From an uncultured Verrucomicrobiota bacterium (GTDB lineage Bacteria; Verrucomicrobiota; Verrucomicrobiia; Limisphaerales; UBA9464): a DNA stretch of 64,000 nucleotides. The first letter of the stretch is position 1. Each line of letters begins with the position of its first letter. Of the stretch, positions 39,144-47,243 are shown one piece after another. The position numbers and the translations under genes are program-made. The notes beneath the pieces were generated by a model, which did not search any database, was not told the origin of the DNA, and worked only from the letters and a program-made list of their open reading frames with translations. Location of the stretch: assembly GCA_903939515.1 (NCBI GenBank), contig CAJAHH010000077.1:1-64000 (forward strand). The letters run 5' to 3'.

Positions 39144-41267
39144 TCAGGCCGGCACACCATACAAGGTCGTCCGGCGGTGCGGAATCCGACCGACCGACCG
39201 GATCGCAGCCTCGATCTCGACCGGGGTGAGGCATTCGCCAAAACGCCCACCGCTCTCACGGGTGATGCTTTCTTCATAGAGCGTGCCGCCGAAATCGTTG
39301 CAGCCGGAACGGAGCATGGCCGCCGCGCGCTCGGGCCCCAGCTTCACCCAACTGGTCTGAAGGTTGGGAATTTCCTCCCCTAAGAACAAACGGGCGATGG
39401 GATACAGTTGCTCTACTCGGCCAACTCCCGCATCGGCCAACGCCTCCGGACTCACGCCTGCCTCTCGCGCCAATTCGCCGCCTAAGCGATTGCGATACGG
39501 CACGAAGGCCAAGGGCACAAACTCTGTAAACCCGCCGGTGCGCCGCTGGAGGGAGCGGATGCGGTCGAGGTGACGGATGAGGTCTTCCCACGATTCCCGG
39601 TGGCCGAAGAGCACGGTGGCAGTCGAGCGAAGTCCGATCTGATGAGCCGCCTCGATGATGGCTTCCCACTCGGCGGCCCGGAGCTTGTCGGGCGAAAGCT
39701 GATCACGCATGGCGTCATCGAGGATTTCCGCGGCTGTGCCGGGAACCGATCCCAGGCCGGCATCGCGCAGGCGGCTGAGCACCGTGCGGGGATCCAGACC
39801 GCTCTTGCGGCACAGCGAGTGGATCTCCATGGGCGAATAGGCGTGGAGATGAACGCCGGGCAAGGCGCGCTTCAGGGCGCGGAGCAGCTCTTCATAATAC
39901 TCCAGCCCGAGGTCCGGATGGATACCGCCTTGCAGGCAAACCTCGCTGACCCAAGGCGTTTGCAAGACCCGCTCGACCACGGCCCCGACAGTCCGGGTGT
40001 AGGCTTCGGGATGGCCCGGCGGACGATAGAACCCGCAGAAGGAACAGTTTGTGGTGCAGACGTTGGTGAAGTTGGCGTTGCGGTTGACCACATACGTCAC
40101 GACCTCGCCATGGAGACGTCGGTTCAACGCATCGGCCGCCTCGCGAATTTCCTCGCGCGCCGCGCCATCGGCCTGGGCCAACGTCAAGGTTTCGTCCACC
40201 GACAACGCCTCACCGCGCAAGGCCTTGGTCAGTGGTTCAGGCGGTCCATGGGGGCGGTGAGTTTCGGGCATGGGGTTGCGAGGTCTGTCCGCAGTGAGCT
40301 TAGTCCGTTCGTCCCGGGCTTGGATCACTGCGGCGACTCGGGCGGAAATCCACCCTTTCTCGACATACGCGTCATACACCGGCCACCGGTGGCGCAGTTC
40401 GGCTCCCTGACGCTGACAGGCCTGGGCGTACCGTTCGGGAGGCGCCCAGGGATTGAGGGGATTGACCCAATCGCCGTCGGTGCTAATGCCGCCCAGGTCG
40501 TCGGTCCACGGCAGCAAGGCCTCCCAGTGCGGATTGATATTGGGCGGAATCTGAATGGCTACCCCAGGAGCTACGCGCCGCCAGTGCTCGATGAGCTCCA
40601 GATACTCTTCCAGCGCCGGAGCTTCGGGCACGGAGCTGAGCCGCGATCCCTCATTGGGGATAAAATTCTGGAGGATGATTTCCTGCAAGTGCCCGTGGCC
40701 CGCGTGGATTTCGGCCAGGGCATCGAGTGAGCGCAGCCGGGACTCCCGCGATTCACCCAGTCCGATGAGGATGCCGCTGGTGTACGGCACACGGGCGCGA
40801 CCAGCGGCCTCCAATGTCTGCAAGCGGCCCTTGGCGGATTTCTGCGGAGCGAGGGTCCGATTGAAGGCGTCGTCGATGTTTTCGAGCATCAGCCCCATGG
40901 AGGCATTCACTTCGGCCAACCGCTCGAAGTCGCGCGGAGACATGGCTCCAATGTTGGTGTGCGGCAGGAAGCCGGCTTCCAGAGCGCGCTCGCAGGCCCA
41001 GCGAACGTGTGCGACAAAATCATCAAAGCCCCGGGCCTTCAACTCGGCCCGCAAATGCGGCATGGCATCCGAAGCCTCGCCTGCCAGGAACAAGATCTCC
41101 GTGGCTCCGCCCTTCCGTGCGGTGACCAGAAGTTCCTCGAAGCGCGCCTCGGGCATGAGCCCCTCCCGATCCCGCCGGTACCCGCAGTAAGCACAGTTCC
41201 ACGGACAATCCCGCGTCAGCGGAATCGTCAGCGACGGGGAAAACGTGATGACCCGTGGTGCATTCAA
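39144..41267 (-). CDS. fused CofG-CofH FO (deazaflavin) synthase
   Basis: A 707-residue protein with two radical-SAM domains. The first (about 1-320, CofG-like) has the cluster motif RDCPWNCAYCGYRR (Cx3Cx2C) and NIGAMSPRDFERLAEVNASM. The second (about 335-700, CofH-like) has NRNANFTNVCTTNCSFCGFY (Cx3Cx2C), LQGGIHPDLGLEYYEELLRA and HRRTTLYGVP at the end. Together they make FO from tyrosine and a riboflavin precursor, as FbiC does in actinobacteria. FO is the core of F420 and also the antenna pigment of some photolyases. No cofC, cofD or cofE is in the window, whereas two photolyase-like genes are 3 kb away, so an antenna role is a reasonable inference. Confidence 0.92.
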   Translation of the reverse strand: MNAPRVITFSPSLTIPLTRDCPWNCAYCGYRRDREGLMPEARFEELLVTARKGGATEILFLAGEASDAMPHLRAELKARGFDDFVAHVRWACERALEAGFLPHTNIGAMSPRDFERLAEVNASMGLMLENIDDAFNRTLAPQKSAKGRLQTLEAAGRARVPYTSGILIGLGESRESRLRSLDALAEIHAGHGHLQEIILQNFIPNEGSRLSSVPEAPALEEYLELIEHWRRVAPGVAIQIPPNINPHWEALLPWTDDLGGISTDGDWVNPLNPWAPPERYAQACQRQGAELRHRWPVYDAYVEKGWISARVAAVIQARDERTKLTADRPRNPMPETHRPHGPPEPLTKALRGEALSVDETLTLAQADGAAREEIREAADALNRRLHGEVVTYVVNRNANFTNVCTTNCSFCGFYRPPGHPEAYTRTVGAVVERVLQTPWVSEVCLQGGIHPDLGLEYYEELLRALKRALPGVHLHAYSPMEIHSLCRKSGLDPRTVLSRLRDAGLGSVPGTAAEILDDAMRDQLSPDKLRAAEWEAIIEAAHQIGLRSTATVLFGHRESWEDLIRHLDRIRSLQRRTGGFTEFVPLAFVPYRNRLGGELAREAGVSPEALADAGVGRVEQLYPIARLFLGEEIPNLQTSWVKLGPERAAAMLRSGCNDFGGTLYEESITRESGGRFGECLTPVEIEAAIRSVGRIPHRRTTLYGVPA

Positions 41268-41763: not shown

Positions 41764-43461
41764 ATGAACATGGAATCCACGCCGGCCCCTTCATCGGCTC
41801 TCCCGTCGCAGGCCTGTCCGCGATGTCTGTCCCCCATTCCTGAACGGGCCCCGGGTGGTTTGTGCCCGCGCTGTCTCTTAGACGGGGCGAATGCACCGAC
41901 GGACGCCGGTCTCGGAACTCAATCGTGGAAGACGCCGACCTTGGCTGAGATCGCCTCGGCCTTTCCAGAACTGGAGGTGCTGGGACACTTGGGCACGGGC
42001 GGGATGGGCTGCGTGTACCGGGTGCGGGAACGGGATTCAGGCAGGATCTCGGCGCTCAAGGTGTTGCCCCGTGAATTGGCCACCGATCCGGCCTTCGTAG
42101 AACGATTCGAGCGCGAGGCGCGTACGCTCTCGCGGTTGCGGCATCCCCACATCGTGGGCGTCCATGGGTTTGGGCAGGCGGGTGGGTTCTGCTTCCTGCT
42201 CATGGAGTTCGTGGACGGGGCCAACCTCCGCCAGGCGCTACGATCCGGACGCTTCACGCCGCAACAGGCGCTGGCGCTCATCCCGCCGATTTGTGAGGCG
42301 TTGCAGGCCGCGCACTCACAGGGGGTGCTGCATCGGGATATCAAGCCGGAGAACTTGCTGCTGGATGCCGAGGGCCGCGTGAAAATTGCCGATTTCGGCA
42401 TCGCGAAGCTGCTTGAGGGTCCGGGTGCCTCGGCGGGCGAGGCGTACACGCTCACCCGCACCGGGGCCCGGATCGGCACACCGCATTACATGGCCCCGGA
42501 ACAAGTAGAGACGCCCGACCAGGTGGACCACCGGGCCGACATCTATTCACTGGGGGTGGTCTTCTACGAGCTGCTCACCGGGGAGCTTCCGCTCGGCCGC
42601 TTCCCGGCCCCGTCGATCAAGGCCGGCCTCGATGCCCGCGTGGACGACATCGTCTTCCGAGCGCTGGCCAAGGAACGGGAACTGCGCCAGCAAACCGCCG
42701 ATCAGGTGAAGGCCGAGGTCGAAGGGTTGGGTGGAACCGAAAGCGAGGAGAGGGACAAGCCCGCGAAGCGAGTTTCGATCTGGAGACGCTTCGGGCCATG
42801 GACGAGATTCCGGGTGGCCGGGGCGGTCGCGGTCGCGCTCCTCGCGGCTTGGGCTCTACTGACCGTCACCGTCCGTTTCCTTCAGCAAAACAAGACCCAC
42901 GCGGACCGGATCGCCGGTGTCAATCGGCTCAAGAATATCGGGTTGGCGGTCAAAACCATTGAGGTTGATGGTCTGATCTCAAATATCAATACCCTCACCG
43001 GCCAACCCGTCGTGATCTTTGGACCGGAACTCACGGACACATCCCCCGACTCGATTCTCGCCGTGGCGCCCGGGGGATCGGACCTAAAAAACCCAACGGT
43101 TCTATTTGCCGACGGGTCGGTCGAGCAGCTGTCTGAAGCGAGATTCCAGGAACGCCTGAGCCGGGCCAGCCCGTCGTATCGCGCCGCCTGGGAACACTTC
43201 CAGCGTCTAGAAATCTTCGACCTGATGACAGACCCCCGAACCGGCAAACCCTACCTGTTCTTCCTGGCAACCAGCGGGACGAACCCGTCGCCCGACGAGA
43301 TGATCGCCGTGTCGCCCCCGGATCCGGACACGCAGGGCCGATCGGTCCTGCTGGGGGACGGGTCGGTCCAGCAGCTGTCCAAAGCGCAATTCCGGGACCG
43401 CCTGAGCCGAGCCAGCCCGTCGGTCCGGGCCTTCTGGCGATTTGTGCACGGGGAGCCATAG
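41764..43461 (+). CDS. membrane Ser/Thr protein kinase with zinc-ribbon N-terminus
   Basis: A 565-residue kinase. Residues 18-37 hold a C-x2-C-x12-C-x2-C zinc ribbon. The Hanks-type kinase domain (about 70-330) has the glycine loop HLGTGGMGCVYRV, the ATP lysine in ALKVLP, the catalytic loop VLHRDIKPENLLLD, DFG in IADFGIAKLLEG and MAPEQVETPDQVDHRADIYS. A membrane helix follows (VAGAVAVALLAAWALLTVTV). The outside part has a pilin-like NRLKNIGLAVKTIEVDG and two repeats with FADGSVEQLSEARFQERLSR and GDGSVQQLSKAQFRDRLSR. A strong GGAGGG precedes the ATG. It is followed 27 bp later by a sigma factor gene. Confidence 0.92.
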   Translation: MNMESTPAPSSALPSQACPRCLSPIPERAPGGLCPRCLLDGANAPTDAGLGTQSWKTPTLAEIASAFPELEVLGHLGTGGMGCVYRVRERDSGRISALKVLPRELATDPAFVERFEREARTLSRLRHPHIVGVHGFGQAGGFCFLLMEFVDGANLRQALRSGRFTPQQALALIPPICEALQAAHSQGVLHRDIKPENLLLDAEGRVKIADFGIAKLLEGPGASAGEAYTLTRTGARIGTPHYMAPEQVETPDQVDHRADIYSLGVVFYELLTGELPLGRFPAPSIKAGLDARVDDIVFRALAKERELRQQTADQVKAEVEGLGGTESEERDKPAKRVSIWRRFGPWTRFRVAGAVAVALLAAWALLTVTVRFLQQNKTHADRIAGVNRLKNIGLAVKTIEVDGLISNINTLTGQPVVIFGPELTDTSPDSILAVAPGGSDLKNPTVLFADGSVEQLSEARFQERLSRASPSYRAAWEHFQRLEIFDLMTDPRTGKPYLFFLATSGTNPSPDEMIAVSPPDPDTQGRSVLLGDGSVQQLSKAQFRDRLSRASPSVRAFWRFVHGEP

Positions 43462-43488
43462 GGACCGACGGCCCAACAGAGCCCCCCC

Positions 43489-44208
43489 ATGACCACACCC
43501 CGATGGCCCATCGCCGGCTTTGCTCCTACGCGCTGGTCGCTGGTGGCGCGGGCGCGGGGCACGACGCCGGAGGCCCGGGCGGCCTTGTCGGAATTGTGCG
43601 AGGCGTATTGGCGACCGGTGTTCGAGACGTTGCGGCGGTGGCATGGCACCGACGACGAGGCGCGCGAATCGGCCCAAGAGTTCTTCGCCCACGTGCTGGC
43701 CGGCGGCCGCATCGAGGGGGCCGACCCAGCCCGCGGGCGATTCCGCTCCTACTTGCTCGGCGCACTCCGGCATTTCGAGTCGGACTTGCGCGAGCGGGCC
43801 CGCCGACTCAAGCGCGGCGGCGGCGTTCCAACCGCGTCGTTTTCCGAAGATGGGATCGCCGAACCGGCCACCGCAGGCCTCGATGCGAGCCGCTTCGACC
43901 GCGAGTGGGCCTTCACCCTGCTTGAGCGAGCTCTGGCGACGGTCGAGAGCGACTTGCGATCGGCGGGCAAGTCGGCCCACTTCGAGCGCCTCAAGCCCGC
44001 TCTGGTCGGCGACGCTCTTCCGTCGCCCACAGACCTCGCCCGGGAACTCGGACTCACCGAAGGCGCGTTGAAGGTGGCCGTCCACCGCTTGCGTCGGCGA
44101 TTCAGGGAGGCTGTGCGGGCCGAGATATCCCAGACCCTGACGGACGGCGACGATGTGCAAGAAGAACTGCGCTACCTCATCGAGGTGTTGGCCTCACCGG
44201 GAGGCTGA
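43489..44208 (+). CDS. ECF-like RNA polymerase sigma factor
   Basis: A 239-residue member of the sigma-70 family with region 2 (SELCEAYWRPVFETLRRWHG, then DEARESAQEFFAHVLAGGRI) and region 4 with a helix-turn-helix (TDLARELGLTEGALKVAVHR, LRRRF). The N-terminus FAPTRWSLVARAR and the DEAxDxxQEFF pattern are those of the sigma factors paired with zinc-ribbon Ser/Thr kinases in Planctomycetota and Verrucomicrobiota. Region 3 and the N-terminal sigma domains are missing, as in ECF sigmas. It is co-transcribed with the kinase, and no anti-sigma factor is seen, so the kinase is the likely regulator. Confidence 0.88.
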   Translation: MTTPRWPIAGFAPTRWSLVARARGTTPEARAALSELCEAYWRPVFETLRRWHGTDDEARESAQEFFAHVLAGGRIEGADPARGRFRSYLLGALRHFESDLRERARRLKRGGGVPTASFSEDGIAEPATAGLDASRFDREWAFTLLERALATVESDLRSAGKSAHFERLKPALVGDALPSPTDLARELGLTEGALKVAVHRLRRRFREAVRAEISQTLTDGDDVQEELRYLIEVLASPGG

Positions 44209-44232: not shown

Positions 44233-45936
44233 CTATCCGAAGAGCTCTTGCTGAACCGGGCCGATGGGGCACTCCGGAGCGGGGTCGGACAACCCGCCCA
44301 GCAACCCTTGTCGATATCGGGCTTCGGCCTCGGCCCCGCGGAAGGTGTGGCCCTTGCGGCTGCCGTGGCGGAGGTACACGCGACGGGAGGCCTCACGAGC
44401 GGCGACGCTAGATCGAACACGGGCAATCCGCTCCTTGGCCTCGGTGACCGACCGACGGGGGTCGACCCTCGGGGCAGGATAATCGACACCGATCACGCAT
44501 CGGGCGGCCTCCTGCTGCGAGCGCGTCATGCGCCACGGCTCGGCCAGAAAGACGTCGGGCACGCCGGCCAGTTCGGGCACCCAGCGACGAATGAACACGC
44601 CCTTCGGGTCCTGCTCGATGGCCTGAAGTGTCGGGGAATAAATGCGCACGGTGTTAATGCCCGTTGTCCCGCTCTGCATTTGGGCCTGGCTGAAATGGAT
44701 CCCCGGCTCGAAGTCGAGGAAGCACCGGGCCAGGTGGATCGCCGTCGGACGCCAGTGGAGCCAGAGGTGGTAAGAGGCCACGCTCATCACCAAGGCGCGC
44801 ATGCGAAAGTTGAGCCAGCCCGTGGCCCGCACCGCCCGCAGGCAGGCATCGACCATCGGAAAGCCGATCCGTCCCTGACGCCAGGCCTCAAGGCGCAGCT
44901 GACCTTCTTCGGACTCGGTGAAGGCCTCGCGCAACCCATCGTAGACCGGGTTGAAGTTCTCGAACTCGATGCGCGGCTCGTCCTCGAGCTTTTGCATGAA
45001 GTGACAATGCCACCGCAGGCGCGCCTGAAAGCTCGCGAGCGCGCCGGACCAGCGGCGGTCCACCGGTTCTCCGGCGCTGAGCATCGCCCGCAAGGTCTCC
45101 TGCCGGTGCAAGGCCGCTTGATGCACCCGGCGCATGGAGACACAACCCCATGCGAGGTGGGCGCTGAGACGGGAGCAAGCCGTCCAGGCGGTGAGCGGGC
45201 TCGACATTTCCGCACGGTAGCCGACGCCGCGCTCCTCAAGGAAACTCCCCAGCCCTTCCCGCGCCGCCGTCTCGCCGCCGCGTTGGAGTTCGATCGGAAT
45301 CACCGGATCCAAGCCCAGTTGCTCCGGACCCAAAACACCGTCGGAGACGAGCCCGGTCGGACGACCCGATCCGAGCACCTCCGGGGACGACTCGATGCGG
45401 CCCGACATGCTCCTAGCCCAGCGTTCGGCCCAACCGTCGCGGGATCGCAGCCGACGCACCACGCCGTCCTGACGCCGCTCTTGCCAGTCGATCCCGCGGT
45501 CACGGCACCAGCGGGCGACGCGGAGATCGCGGTCGAAGGTCTGCCGGTTGCCCGTTTCCTCATGCGACCAAAGCCGGACAAAACCCGTCTCGCGATGCAG
45601 GCGTTCGAGTTGCTCCACGGCCTCGCCGCGCCGCAACAGCAGACACCCCCCGCGCCGCGTCCACTCCGACTCCAAGTCCCGGAGCGCTTCGGCGATGAAG
45701 CGGGAGTGCGACGCATCCCACTCGGGCGACTCAAGGAGCTCGGTCTCGTAGAGGTAGAGCCCAAGAACGGGACCCTGCTGCAAGGCCTCGATCAACGGTG
45801 CGTGGTCGCAGACCCGTAAGTCGCGCTTGAACCACACCACTTGCCAGTCGGCACGCCTCGCGAAAATTGGGCCCCGCGCGGAACGATCGGTCGGTGGCCC
45901 CGCGTGGGTCGAACCGGTGGGTCGGGTCGGGTTCAT
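44233..45936 (-). CDS. cryptochrome/DNA photolyase family protein
   Basis: A 567-residue flavoprotein. The N-terminal photolyase alpha/beta domain (about 25-170) starts QVVWFKRDLRVCDHAPLIEA, and the C-terminal FAD-binding helical domain has CHFMQKLEDEPRIEFENFNP, GRIGFPMVDACLRAVRATGW, NFRMRALVMSVASYHLWLHW and GINTVRIYSPTLQAIEQDP. It should repair UV dimers with blue light or act as a light sensor; substrate type (CPD or 6-4) is not clear. ATG 45936 overlaps the stop of the upstream photolyase-like gene by 1 bp (TGATG), showing coupling. No iron-sulfur cysteine set is evident. It ends in QQELFG, which resembles a sliding-clamp-binding tail. Confidence 0.9.
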   Translation of the reverse strand: MNPTRPTGSTHAGPPTDRSARGPIFARRADWQVVWFKRDLRVCDHAPLIEALQQGPVLGLYLYETELLESPEWDASHSRFIAEALRDLESEWTRRGGCLLLRRGEAVEQLERLHRETGFVRLWSHEETGNRQTFDRDLRVARWCRDRGIDWQERRQDGVVRRLRSRDGWAERWARSMSGRIESSPEVLGSGRPTGLVSDGVLGPEQLGLDPVIPIELQRGGETAAREGLGSFLEERGVGYRAEMSSPLTAWTACSRLSAHLAWGCVSMRRVHQAALHRQETLRAMLSAGEPVDRRWSGALASFQARLRWHCHFMQKLEDEPRIEFENFNPVYDGLREAFTESEEGQLRLEAWRQGRIGFPMVDACLRAVRATGWLNFRMRALVMSVASYHLWLHWRPTAIHLARCFLDFEPGIHFSQAQMQSGTTGINTVRIYSPTLQAIEQDPKGVFIRRWVPELAGVPDVFLAEPWRMTRSQQEAARCVIGVDYPAPRVDPRRSVTEAKERIARVRSSVAAREASRRVYLRHGSRKGHTFRGAEAEARYRQGLLGGLSDPAPECPIGPVQQELFG

Positions 45937-47243
45937 CAGAATAGCAGCTCTGGTTGCTGAGGGTCCCGGCTCTGGGCACGGGCGGCGGCTTGGGTCGCCA
46001 GGCGTCGCTGGGCTTTCTCCCAGAACCCGAAGAACCCCGCCGAGGCTTGAGGCCACAAGTGCTCATCCCACCGGCGACGGCACCAAATCACCTTTCGGCC
46101 GTCGCGGGCCAAGGCGGCCTCGATCGCCGGAATCGCATCACCGAGCGGACCCACCGAGGGACGCATCGCCACCCATCCGGCCAGGCCGCGTTCCTGGGCC
46201 ACCCTCGCAAGGGCCTCGGCCAGACCTTCGCCCGTTTCGCACGATTCGATGGGGCACTTGAAAAAATGACCCGCCCGAGCCAGTCCGTCGGCCAGGGCCG
46301 TTTTCAAATAGGCGATGCGGCGCGGTGCCATGCCAAGAGCCGCGACCCGCTGCGCATCAAACACGCTCAGCAGCACGTCGGGCCGCATCCGTCCCAAGCC
46401 GGATTCTTCAACGCTCAAATCTTCGCCGTGCACCCACAGGCCCCACCGTCCGGGCAGGTTTGCGGAACCTTCGGTGAGGCCGGGAGCGTCGGGCAACGGT
46501 TTCCATGCTACGCGTTCCGCCGGCCGTTCGTCGGGCAGCGGAACCGCCGCCACAACCGAGTCGTCGATGCGCTCCAGGCCGGTGGGATCGGCCAGGAAAT
46601 TTGCAGCGCAATACTTCTCTAAATTGGAGCGGCGTGGCAGGTAGGCCTTGCCCCGGGTTTGCAGGCCGGCGACCCAACGCCATCCTAGCGTGTTGCTGGC
46701 AGGATCGGCGTCGAGGAGATGCCGGTAGAAAAAGTCGGCCCCCAAGGCCCAGGGCAGGCGCTCGACATGGATCCAATACCCGGCCCACCACATGCGGGCG
46801 TGGTTGTGCAAATACCCGGTCGCGATGAGTTCGCGGGTGAACCCATCGAGCACCGCGATGCCGCCTTGGCCTGCCATGACCGCCTCGGCCCGTCGGAGCA
46901 GCGCCGGATCGGCCTGTCGGCGGAGGCGATCCACCTCGGCGCGGTAGTCGGACCAAACGCTGGGCCGCAACTCGAGCCAACCCTTCCAGTAATCGCGCCA
47001 CACCAACTCCTGCACCAATTTCTCCACGGCCTCGAAGCGGCAAGTCTCGAGCAGCGAGCCCACCAACTCTTCGGTGGTCACCAGTCGAGCCCGCAGGGCC
47101 GGAGACAACCGCGTCACATGCGGATGTCCGGGAACGACCTGGTTGCGCAACGCCCCGTAGCGCGTCGCTTGGGGCAAAAATGCCTGCCAACGAGCCAGAG
47201 CGGCCGCACGCGTGCCGGGAAATGTGCCTTCGGAATCCAACAT
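45936..47243 (-). CDS. short photolyase-like FAD-binding protein
   Basis: A 435-residue protein with the photolyase FAD-binding core placed near the N-terminus: EKLVQELVWRDYWKGWLELR, then (about 143-212) GYLHNHARMWWAGYWIHVER, DADPASNTLGWRWVAGLQTR, GKAYLPRRSNLEKYC. The usual N-terminal antenna domain is absent. Instead residues of about 265-408 form an alpha/beta-looking segment (WGLWVHGEDLSVEE, PDVLLSVFDAQRV, PRRIAYLKTALADGL, VAMRPSVGPLGDAIPAIE). ATG 47243 is chosen since the upstream open frame looks non-coding; a GTG start slightly upstream is possible. It overlaps the photolyase gene by 1 bp. The tail is QPELLF. Related proteins occur in proteobacteria; the role here is probably DNA repair or light sensing. 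Confidence 0.8.
   Translation of the reverse strand: MLDSEGTFPGTRAAALARWQAFLPQATRYGALRNQVVPGHPHVTRLSPALRARLVTTEELVGSLLETCRFEAVEKLVQELVWRDYWKGWLELRPSVWSDYRAEVDRLRRQADPALLRRAEAVMAGQGGIAVLDGFTRELIATGYLHNHARMWWAGYWIHVERLPWALGADFFYRHLLDADPASNTLGWRWVAGLQTRGKAYLPRRSNLEKYCAANFLADPTGLERIDDSVVAAVPLPDERPAERVAWKPLPDAPGLTEGSANLPGRWGLWVHGEDLSVEESGLGRMRPDVLLSVFDAQRVAALGMAPRRIAYLKTALADGLARAGHFFKCPIESCETGEGLAEALARVAQERGLAGWVAMRPSVGPLGDAIPAIEAALARDGRKVIWCRRRWDEHLWPQASAGFFGFWEKAQRRLATQAAARAQSRDPQQPELLF

Follow-up and report, generated by a model that had tools for sequence, protein, structure and literature searches.

The window, a stretch of 64,000 nucleotides from an uncultured Verrucomicrobiota bacterium, encodes on its minus strand a 435-residue protein (45936..47243) in which an FAD-binding photolyase core is followed by a second domain predicted to be of the photolyase alpha/beta type. 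This inverted protein is very probably a photolyase of the NewPHL class that is coupled to a family member with an altered active site. The analysis behind this explanation covered the order and predicted fold of the domains, the conservation of residues, the overlap and co-occurrence of the two genes and the motifs at the protein ends. The complete coding sequence, assigned from the open reading frame, its relatives and Pfam, starts with ATG at 47243 and stops with TGA at 45938-45936. Fourteen relatives from genome contigs were 51-96% identical to the protein in alignments spanning its length, and the closest named records were Verrucomicrobia MAGs, in several cases of lake origin. The original prediction had expected similar proteins in other phyla, and relatives were indeed found beyond Verrucomicrobiota. 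A scan of viral contigs returned none, and a promoter and terminator scan gave no signal exceeding that of shuffled sequences. MAG records titled Akkermansia muciniphila (L005, L013 and L019) carried genes of the same lineage, two of which were >95% identical to the gene in the window; the species label looks wrong. Alphaproteobacterial homologs (L050, L052 and L055) adjoined AarF/UbiB kinase or DUF3429 genes, with no photolyase alongside.

The downstream gene (44233..45936, minus strand) encodes a 567-residue member of the photolyase/cryptochrome family with PF00875 and PF03441 in the normal order and a non-canonical active site. Translational coupling of the two genes had been predicted, and they do overlap, in a TGATG sequence (45934..45938, minus strand) whose single A belongs both to the TGA that ends the inverted gene and to the ATG that opens the partner gene. 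The neighbour had also been called a normal photolyase, a description that held for its domain order but not for its active site. In E. coli numbering, the substitutions E274R, N341F, M345A, D374E, A377I, N378H and W384M, as well as loss of W382, were present in 11/11 members of the partner family, drawn from Verrucomicrobiota, Deinococcus, Alpha- and Gammaproteobacteria. As the residues used for cyclobutane pyrimidine dimer (CPD) repair are absent, the partner is not a normal CPD photolyase, and the set E274R, N341F, M345A, N378H and W384M distinguishes it from class I enzymes. The partner, which has the normal domain order and was 39.8% identical to a Vibrio homolog, may be of the Phr1-like or Vibrio cholerae cryptochrome type. 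The partner family is broad in distribution. In Deinococcus, photolyases of the partner type were fused to uracil-DNA glycosylase (L161 3953-6274, L162 3614-6238 and L171 1441-3756); these fusions are annotated merely as ung or uracil-DNA glycosylase.

The two families were then counted in 387 Verrucomicrobiota genomes, using thresholds of >200 bits for the partner type and >100 bits for the inverted type. The partner type was present in 23 genomes, the inverted type in 32 and both in 19, giving a Fisher p of 3e-20 with relatedness partly controlled. The association was also observed within the 119 photolyase-bearing genomes (p 3.7e-10) and when counted by genus (p 6.6e-6). Adjacent or overlapping pairs recurred in distant Verrucomicrobiota (G223, G310, G194, G211 and G317) and on two Persicobacter plasmids (Bacteroidota; L159 and L160), where the inverted protein forms a separate branch of the FAD-core tree. 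Because overlap, co-occurrence and repeated adjacency coincide, these sequence comparisons support a functional link between the two families, and the altered-site protein, translated in overlap with the inverted protein, probably acts as its functional partner. A stronger proposal is an obligate heteromeric repair complex, which would combine the CPD site of the inverted protein with a second flavin or antenna function contributed by its neighbour. The short overlap of stop and start codons (one or four bases) in the majority of close relatives, the repeated pairing in distant Verrucomicrobiota and Persicobacter, the genomes with both types and the complementary active sites of the two proteins are all consistent with such a complex. 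However, the two genes are unlinked in most genomes, 13 of the 32 genomes with the inverted type have no partner type, and the partner neighbour is missing even in the close relatives L013, L015 and L016. We therefore regard an obligate complex as possible but doubtful. In Persicobacter JZB09 a third open reading frame (L160 6540-8078) directly follows the pair, and by eye its start resembles a (6-4) photolyase of the FeS-BCP type.

Both proteins end in sequences resembling a beta-clamp-binding motif. Bacterial proteins of DNA replication and repair dock on the beta clamp through the motif QL[SD]LF or a longer form of it. The inverted protein ends in QPELLF (residues 430-435; 45939..45956, minus strand), and its closest homologs carry a motif of the same form after a variable linker. 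The partner carries QQELF (44239..44253, minus strand), a candidate motif that was assessed by enrichment among partner-type proteins. A loose form of the motif was found within the last 14 residues of 22 of 39 partner-type proteins and in 0 of 31 control photolyases (22 class I and 9 FeS-BCP; background rate 0.6%), with a pattern that was set after some tails had been seen; as 11 of the 22 belong to the clade of the window, the count of independent motifs is about 11. Partner-type tails included QLDLF in Duffyella and QLSLPF in Tritonibacter, as well as QLDLPL and QLELDL, and two more, QLGLF (Pseudoalteromonas THAF3) and QLVLDL (Pseudorhodobacter), were seen after the count. Near-consensus clamp-like C-termini occurred in the partner-type proteins L166, L167, L163, L168, L091 and L105, which come from Verrucomicrobiota, Alpha- and Gammaproteobacteria. 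Among inverted proteins the motif was confined to the clade of the window (10 related sequences), and two other loose matches look like chance.

Taken as clamp-binding motifs, these tails suggest photorepair at replication forks. The fullest version of this idea is a replication-fork module in which both tails would dock on the beta clamp, light would reverse CPDs in the single-stranded DNA template, with the chemistry carried out by the inverted protein, and the partner would add a second flavin function; we consider this version rather unlikely. If true, clamp-like tails on a widespread, co-occurring relative that has lost the CPD site would connect repair by light with the machinery of replication. 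A literature search on photolyases and the sliding clamp, at the level of titles and abstracts, yielded nothing beyond general reviews and a single unrelated paper. The coupling to an active-site-altered relative, combined with clamp-like tails, is possibly the new part of this system, and it is the partner and the tails that merit follow-up.

The C-terminal domain of the inverted protein (residues 264-410, with a model match over 264-400; 46014..46454, minus strand) was assigned from AlphaFold, structure alignment and profile comparison. AlphaFold, run with an alignment of 15 sequences, predicted a five-stranded alpha/beta domain with a pLDDT of ~85-95 over most of residues 265-385. In VIA-align, residues 264-400 were co-linear with photolyase residues 1-140 at Z 11-12.4. 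The best match of the full-length model was 8IJY (Z 12.3, 2.2 A over 119 residues), and the domain also aligned with E. coli photolyase 1DNP (Z 12.1) and CryB 3ZXS (Z 11.9, 24% identity). A profile of the C-terminal domain matched photolyases (E 1.8e-4) and FeS-BCP proteins (E 2.2e-4) over 95-116 columns, and no match was obtained with the reversed control. Pfam, in contrast, found no match to DNA_photolyase (PF00875) in the inverted protein or to any family in its C-terminal part, and no Pfam or NCBIfam model covers this domain or the NewPHL class.

A short photolyase joined to an unrelated C-terminal domain, such as that of a universal stress protein, is an improbable reading. The best non-photolyase in VIA-align was a universal stress protein (Z 11.1 with the full-length model; Z 11.2 compared to 12.4 for photolyase when the domain was modelled alone), and one such protein topped the Foldseek list by E-value for the isolated domain. 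Foldseek by itself did not distinguish the two folds. However, photolyases occupied the top VIA-align rows, and the profile matched universal stress proteins weakly (E 8e-3), over 23 columns only. Fold scores alone do not separate a universal stress protein from a photolyase origin of the domain; the profiles and VIA-align together disfavour the former. From these predictions we conclude that the original reading of the domain order, with the FAD core first and the photolyase-type alpha/beta domain last, is confirmed, and the proposed comparison with the photolyase N-terminal domain did not turn up an unrelated fold.

A circular permutation had also been suggested. The order is reversed as suggested, but the protein is not a clean permutation, since the canonical FAD domain also lacks a counterpart for its last third: FAD_binding_7 profile positions 127-203 had no Pfam match, and this segment is replaced by a linker (residues 202-263; 46455..46640, minus strand) that lacks an Fe-S cysteine pattern. 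A search for literature linking circular permutation to photolyases found nothing relevant. As the C-terminal domain is predicted to have an ordinary photolyase alpha/beta fold, the protein looks rearranged rather than primitive, a point of relevance to the proposed ancestral status of short photolyases.

The N-terminal helical core (residues 1-201; 46641..47243, minus strand) was defined from Pfam, alignment with E. coli photolyase and invariant residues. The only Pfam match was FAD_binding_7, which aligned profile positions 2-126 of 203 with residues 77-201 (E 1.1e-21), and phmmer aligned residues 8-201 with E. coli photolyase residues 200-395 (E 1.8e-15); the core aligned with residues 198-395 of the same enzyme. 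Eleven residues, E79, W82, N147, R150, M151, W165, D178, D180, N184, W188 and W190, were invariant in 49/49 relatives; they correspond to E. coli E274, W277, N341, R344, M345, W359, D372, D374, N378, W382 and W384. The asparagine facing N5 was thus retained (N184), as were W382 and W359 (W188 and W165), and the distal tryptophan W306 was replaced by R109. The core was modelled poorly in the full-length AlphaFold prediction, with a pLDDT <50 across much of residues 128-247, because the alignment of 15 sequences was shallow. The invariant residues and the loss of W306 indicate that, as judged by residue conservation, the protein has the CPD pocket and the FAD site of a functional photolyase and a dyad of tryptophans. 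A cryptochrome-like light sensor with no repair function would have precedent among superfamily members that are sensors, and the partner lacks canonical repair residues. Yet all of the CPD-contacting residues tested in the inverted protein were invariant across phyla, as expected for repair and unlike sensors, which makes the sensor very improbable.

A photolyase mechanism can be proposed for the inverted protein. The N-terminal core would bind FAD, which would be photoreduced via the tryptophan dyad W188 and W165. Excited FADH- would then give an electron to a CPD held by E79, W82, N147, M151 and W190, and the dimer would be split. The C-terminal alpha/beta domain may pack on or seal the core from the opposite end of the chain, and by analogy with its class the enzyme would act on single-stranded DNA.

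In 2020 Emmerich reportedly described NewPHL as an inverted-topology class of CPD photolyases specific for single-stranded DNA. The abstract is said to state that the C-terminal domain seals the FAD site and to suggest that NewPHLs replace DASH enzymes. When compared with the DASH cryptochrome model TIGR02765, the inverted protein scored 63.2 bits and failed the cut-off of 317. No DASH cryptochrome above the cut-off was found in the 387 genomes of the phylum, which leaves the role of a single-stranded DNA photolyase free. Two papers (PMC13274461, PMC9426592) refer to inverted-topology photolyases as the NewPHL class, with examples from D. shibae and M. mesophilicum and Phr7 of Prochlorococcus (PMC9426592). 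The inverted architecture is therefore already known, in agreement with the suspicion that the family might not be new. The D. shibae NewPHL uses a Trp dyad (PMC8948257), the N5 asparagine is conserved in NewPHL (PMC12083526), and Prochlorococcus Phr7/NewPHL is described as lacking Fe-S cysteines (PMC9426592). The inverted protein shares with this class the N-terminal FAD catalytic domain, the C-terminal second domain, the CPD active site, the Trp dyad, the N5 Asn and the absence of Fe-S. The presence of R109 in place of W306, with W382 and W359 kept, fits the dyad of the D. shibae enzyme (PMC8948257). The clade of the window appears to differ from NewPHL as described in its translational coupling to a second family member and its clamp-motif-like tail. 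The catalytic core residues are also those of class I CPD photolyase (E. coli, 1DNP), from which the inverted protein differs in domain order, the distal Trp W306 and the C-terminal third of the FAD domain.

The maximum-likelihood tree built from FAD cores, which lacks the D. shibae NewPHL sequence and in which the miscut row L103 (branch length 8.57) was disregarded, grouped the inverted protein with Alphaproteobacteria, among them the roseobacter Ruegeria, in a clade of 41 rows (99/97). The Fe-S Deinococcus form and Bacteroidota-type proteins fell outside this clade. Short photolyase-like proteins (SPL; Xu et al. 2021) are described with an Fe-S cluster (PMC9649867), which the inverted protein does not have; the alpha/beta domain lost in SPL is moved but still present in the inverted protein. 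Synechococcus Phr4/Phr5 and Cyanobium Phr6, encoded by one or two genes, combine reversed domain order with Fe-S cysteines and were proposed as (6-4) photolyases (PMC9426592). The inverted protein has the same order of FAD and photolyase domains as Phr4/5/6, and the Fe-S cysteines are found only in the latter. An Fe-S-bearing reversed or short photolyase of the SPL or Phr4/5/6 kind is the least probable identity, as the similar N-terminal FAD domain and the equally reversed order of Phr6 (PMC9426592) are outweighed by the lack of an Fe-S cysteine set in the inverted protein and its clade and by the separation in the tree of the one relative that has it; this identity was rejected. That sole carrier, from Deinococcus AJ005 (L053 5812-7182), has C131, C217, C220 and C228 in the numbering of the window protein, and its C-terminal extension looks alpha/beta-like. 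In one contig (L043 1420-2686; G108) the inverted protein is split, with the core and C-terminal domain in two overlapping open reading frames, which recalls the phr4/phr5 split of Synechococcus.

The genes surrounding the pair include one that bears on a photolyase antenna. A fused FO synthase, CofG-CofH (707 residues; 39144-41267, minus strand), is encoded 3 kb from the photolyase pair, and neither CofD nor CofE had a match in the genome. From this combination it follows that the organism probably makes FO (8-HDF) as a photolyase antenna rather than F420. A Ser/Thr kinase gene (565 residues) followed by a gene for a divergent ECF-like sigma factor (239 residues) occupies 41764-44208 on the plus strand. 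This kinase/sigma pair is convergent with the photolyase pair and lies in the same place in L005, L006, L008 and L009.
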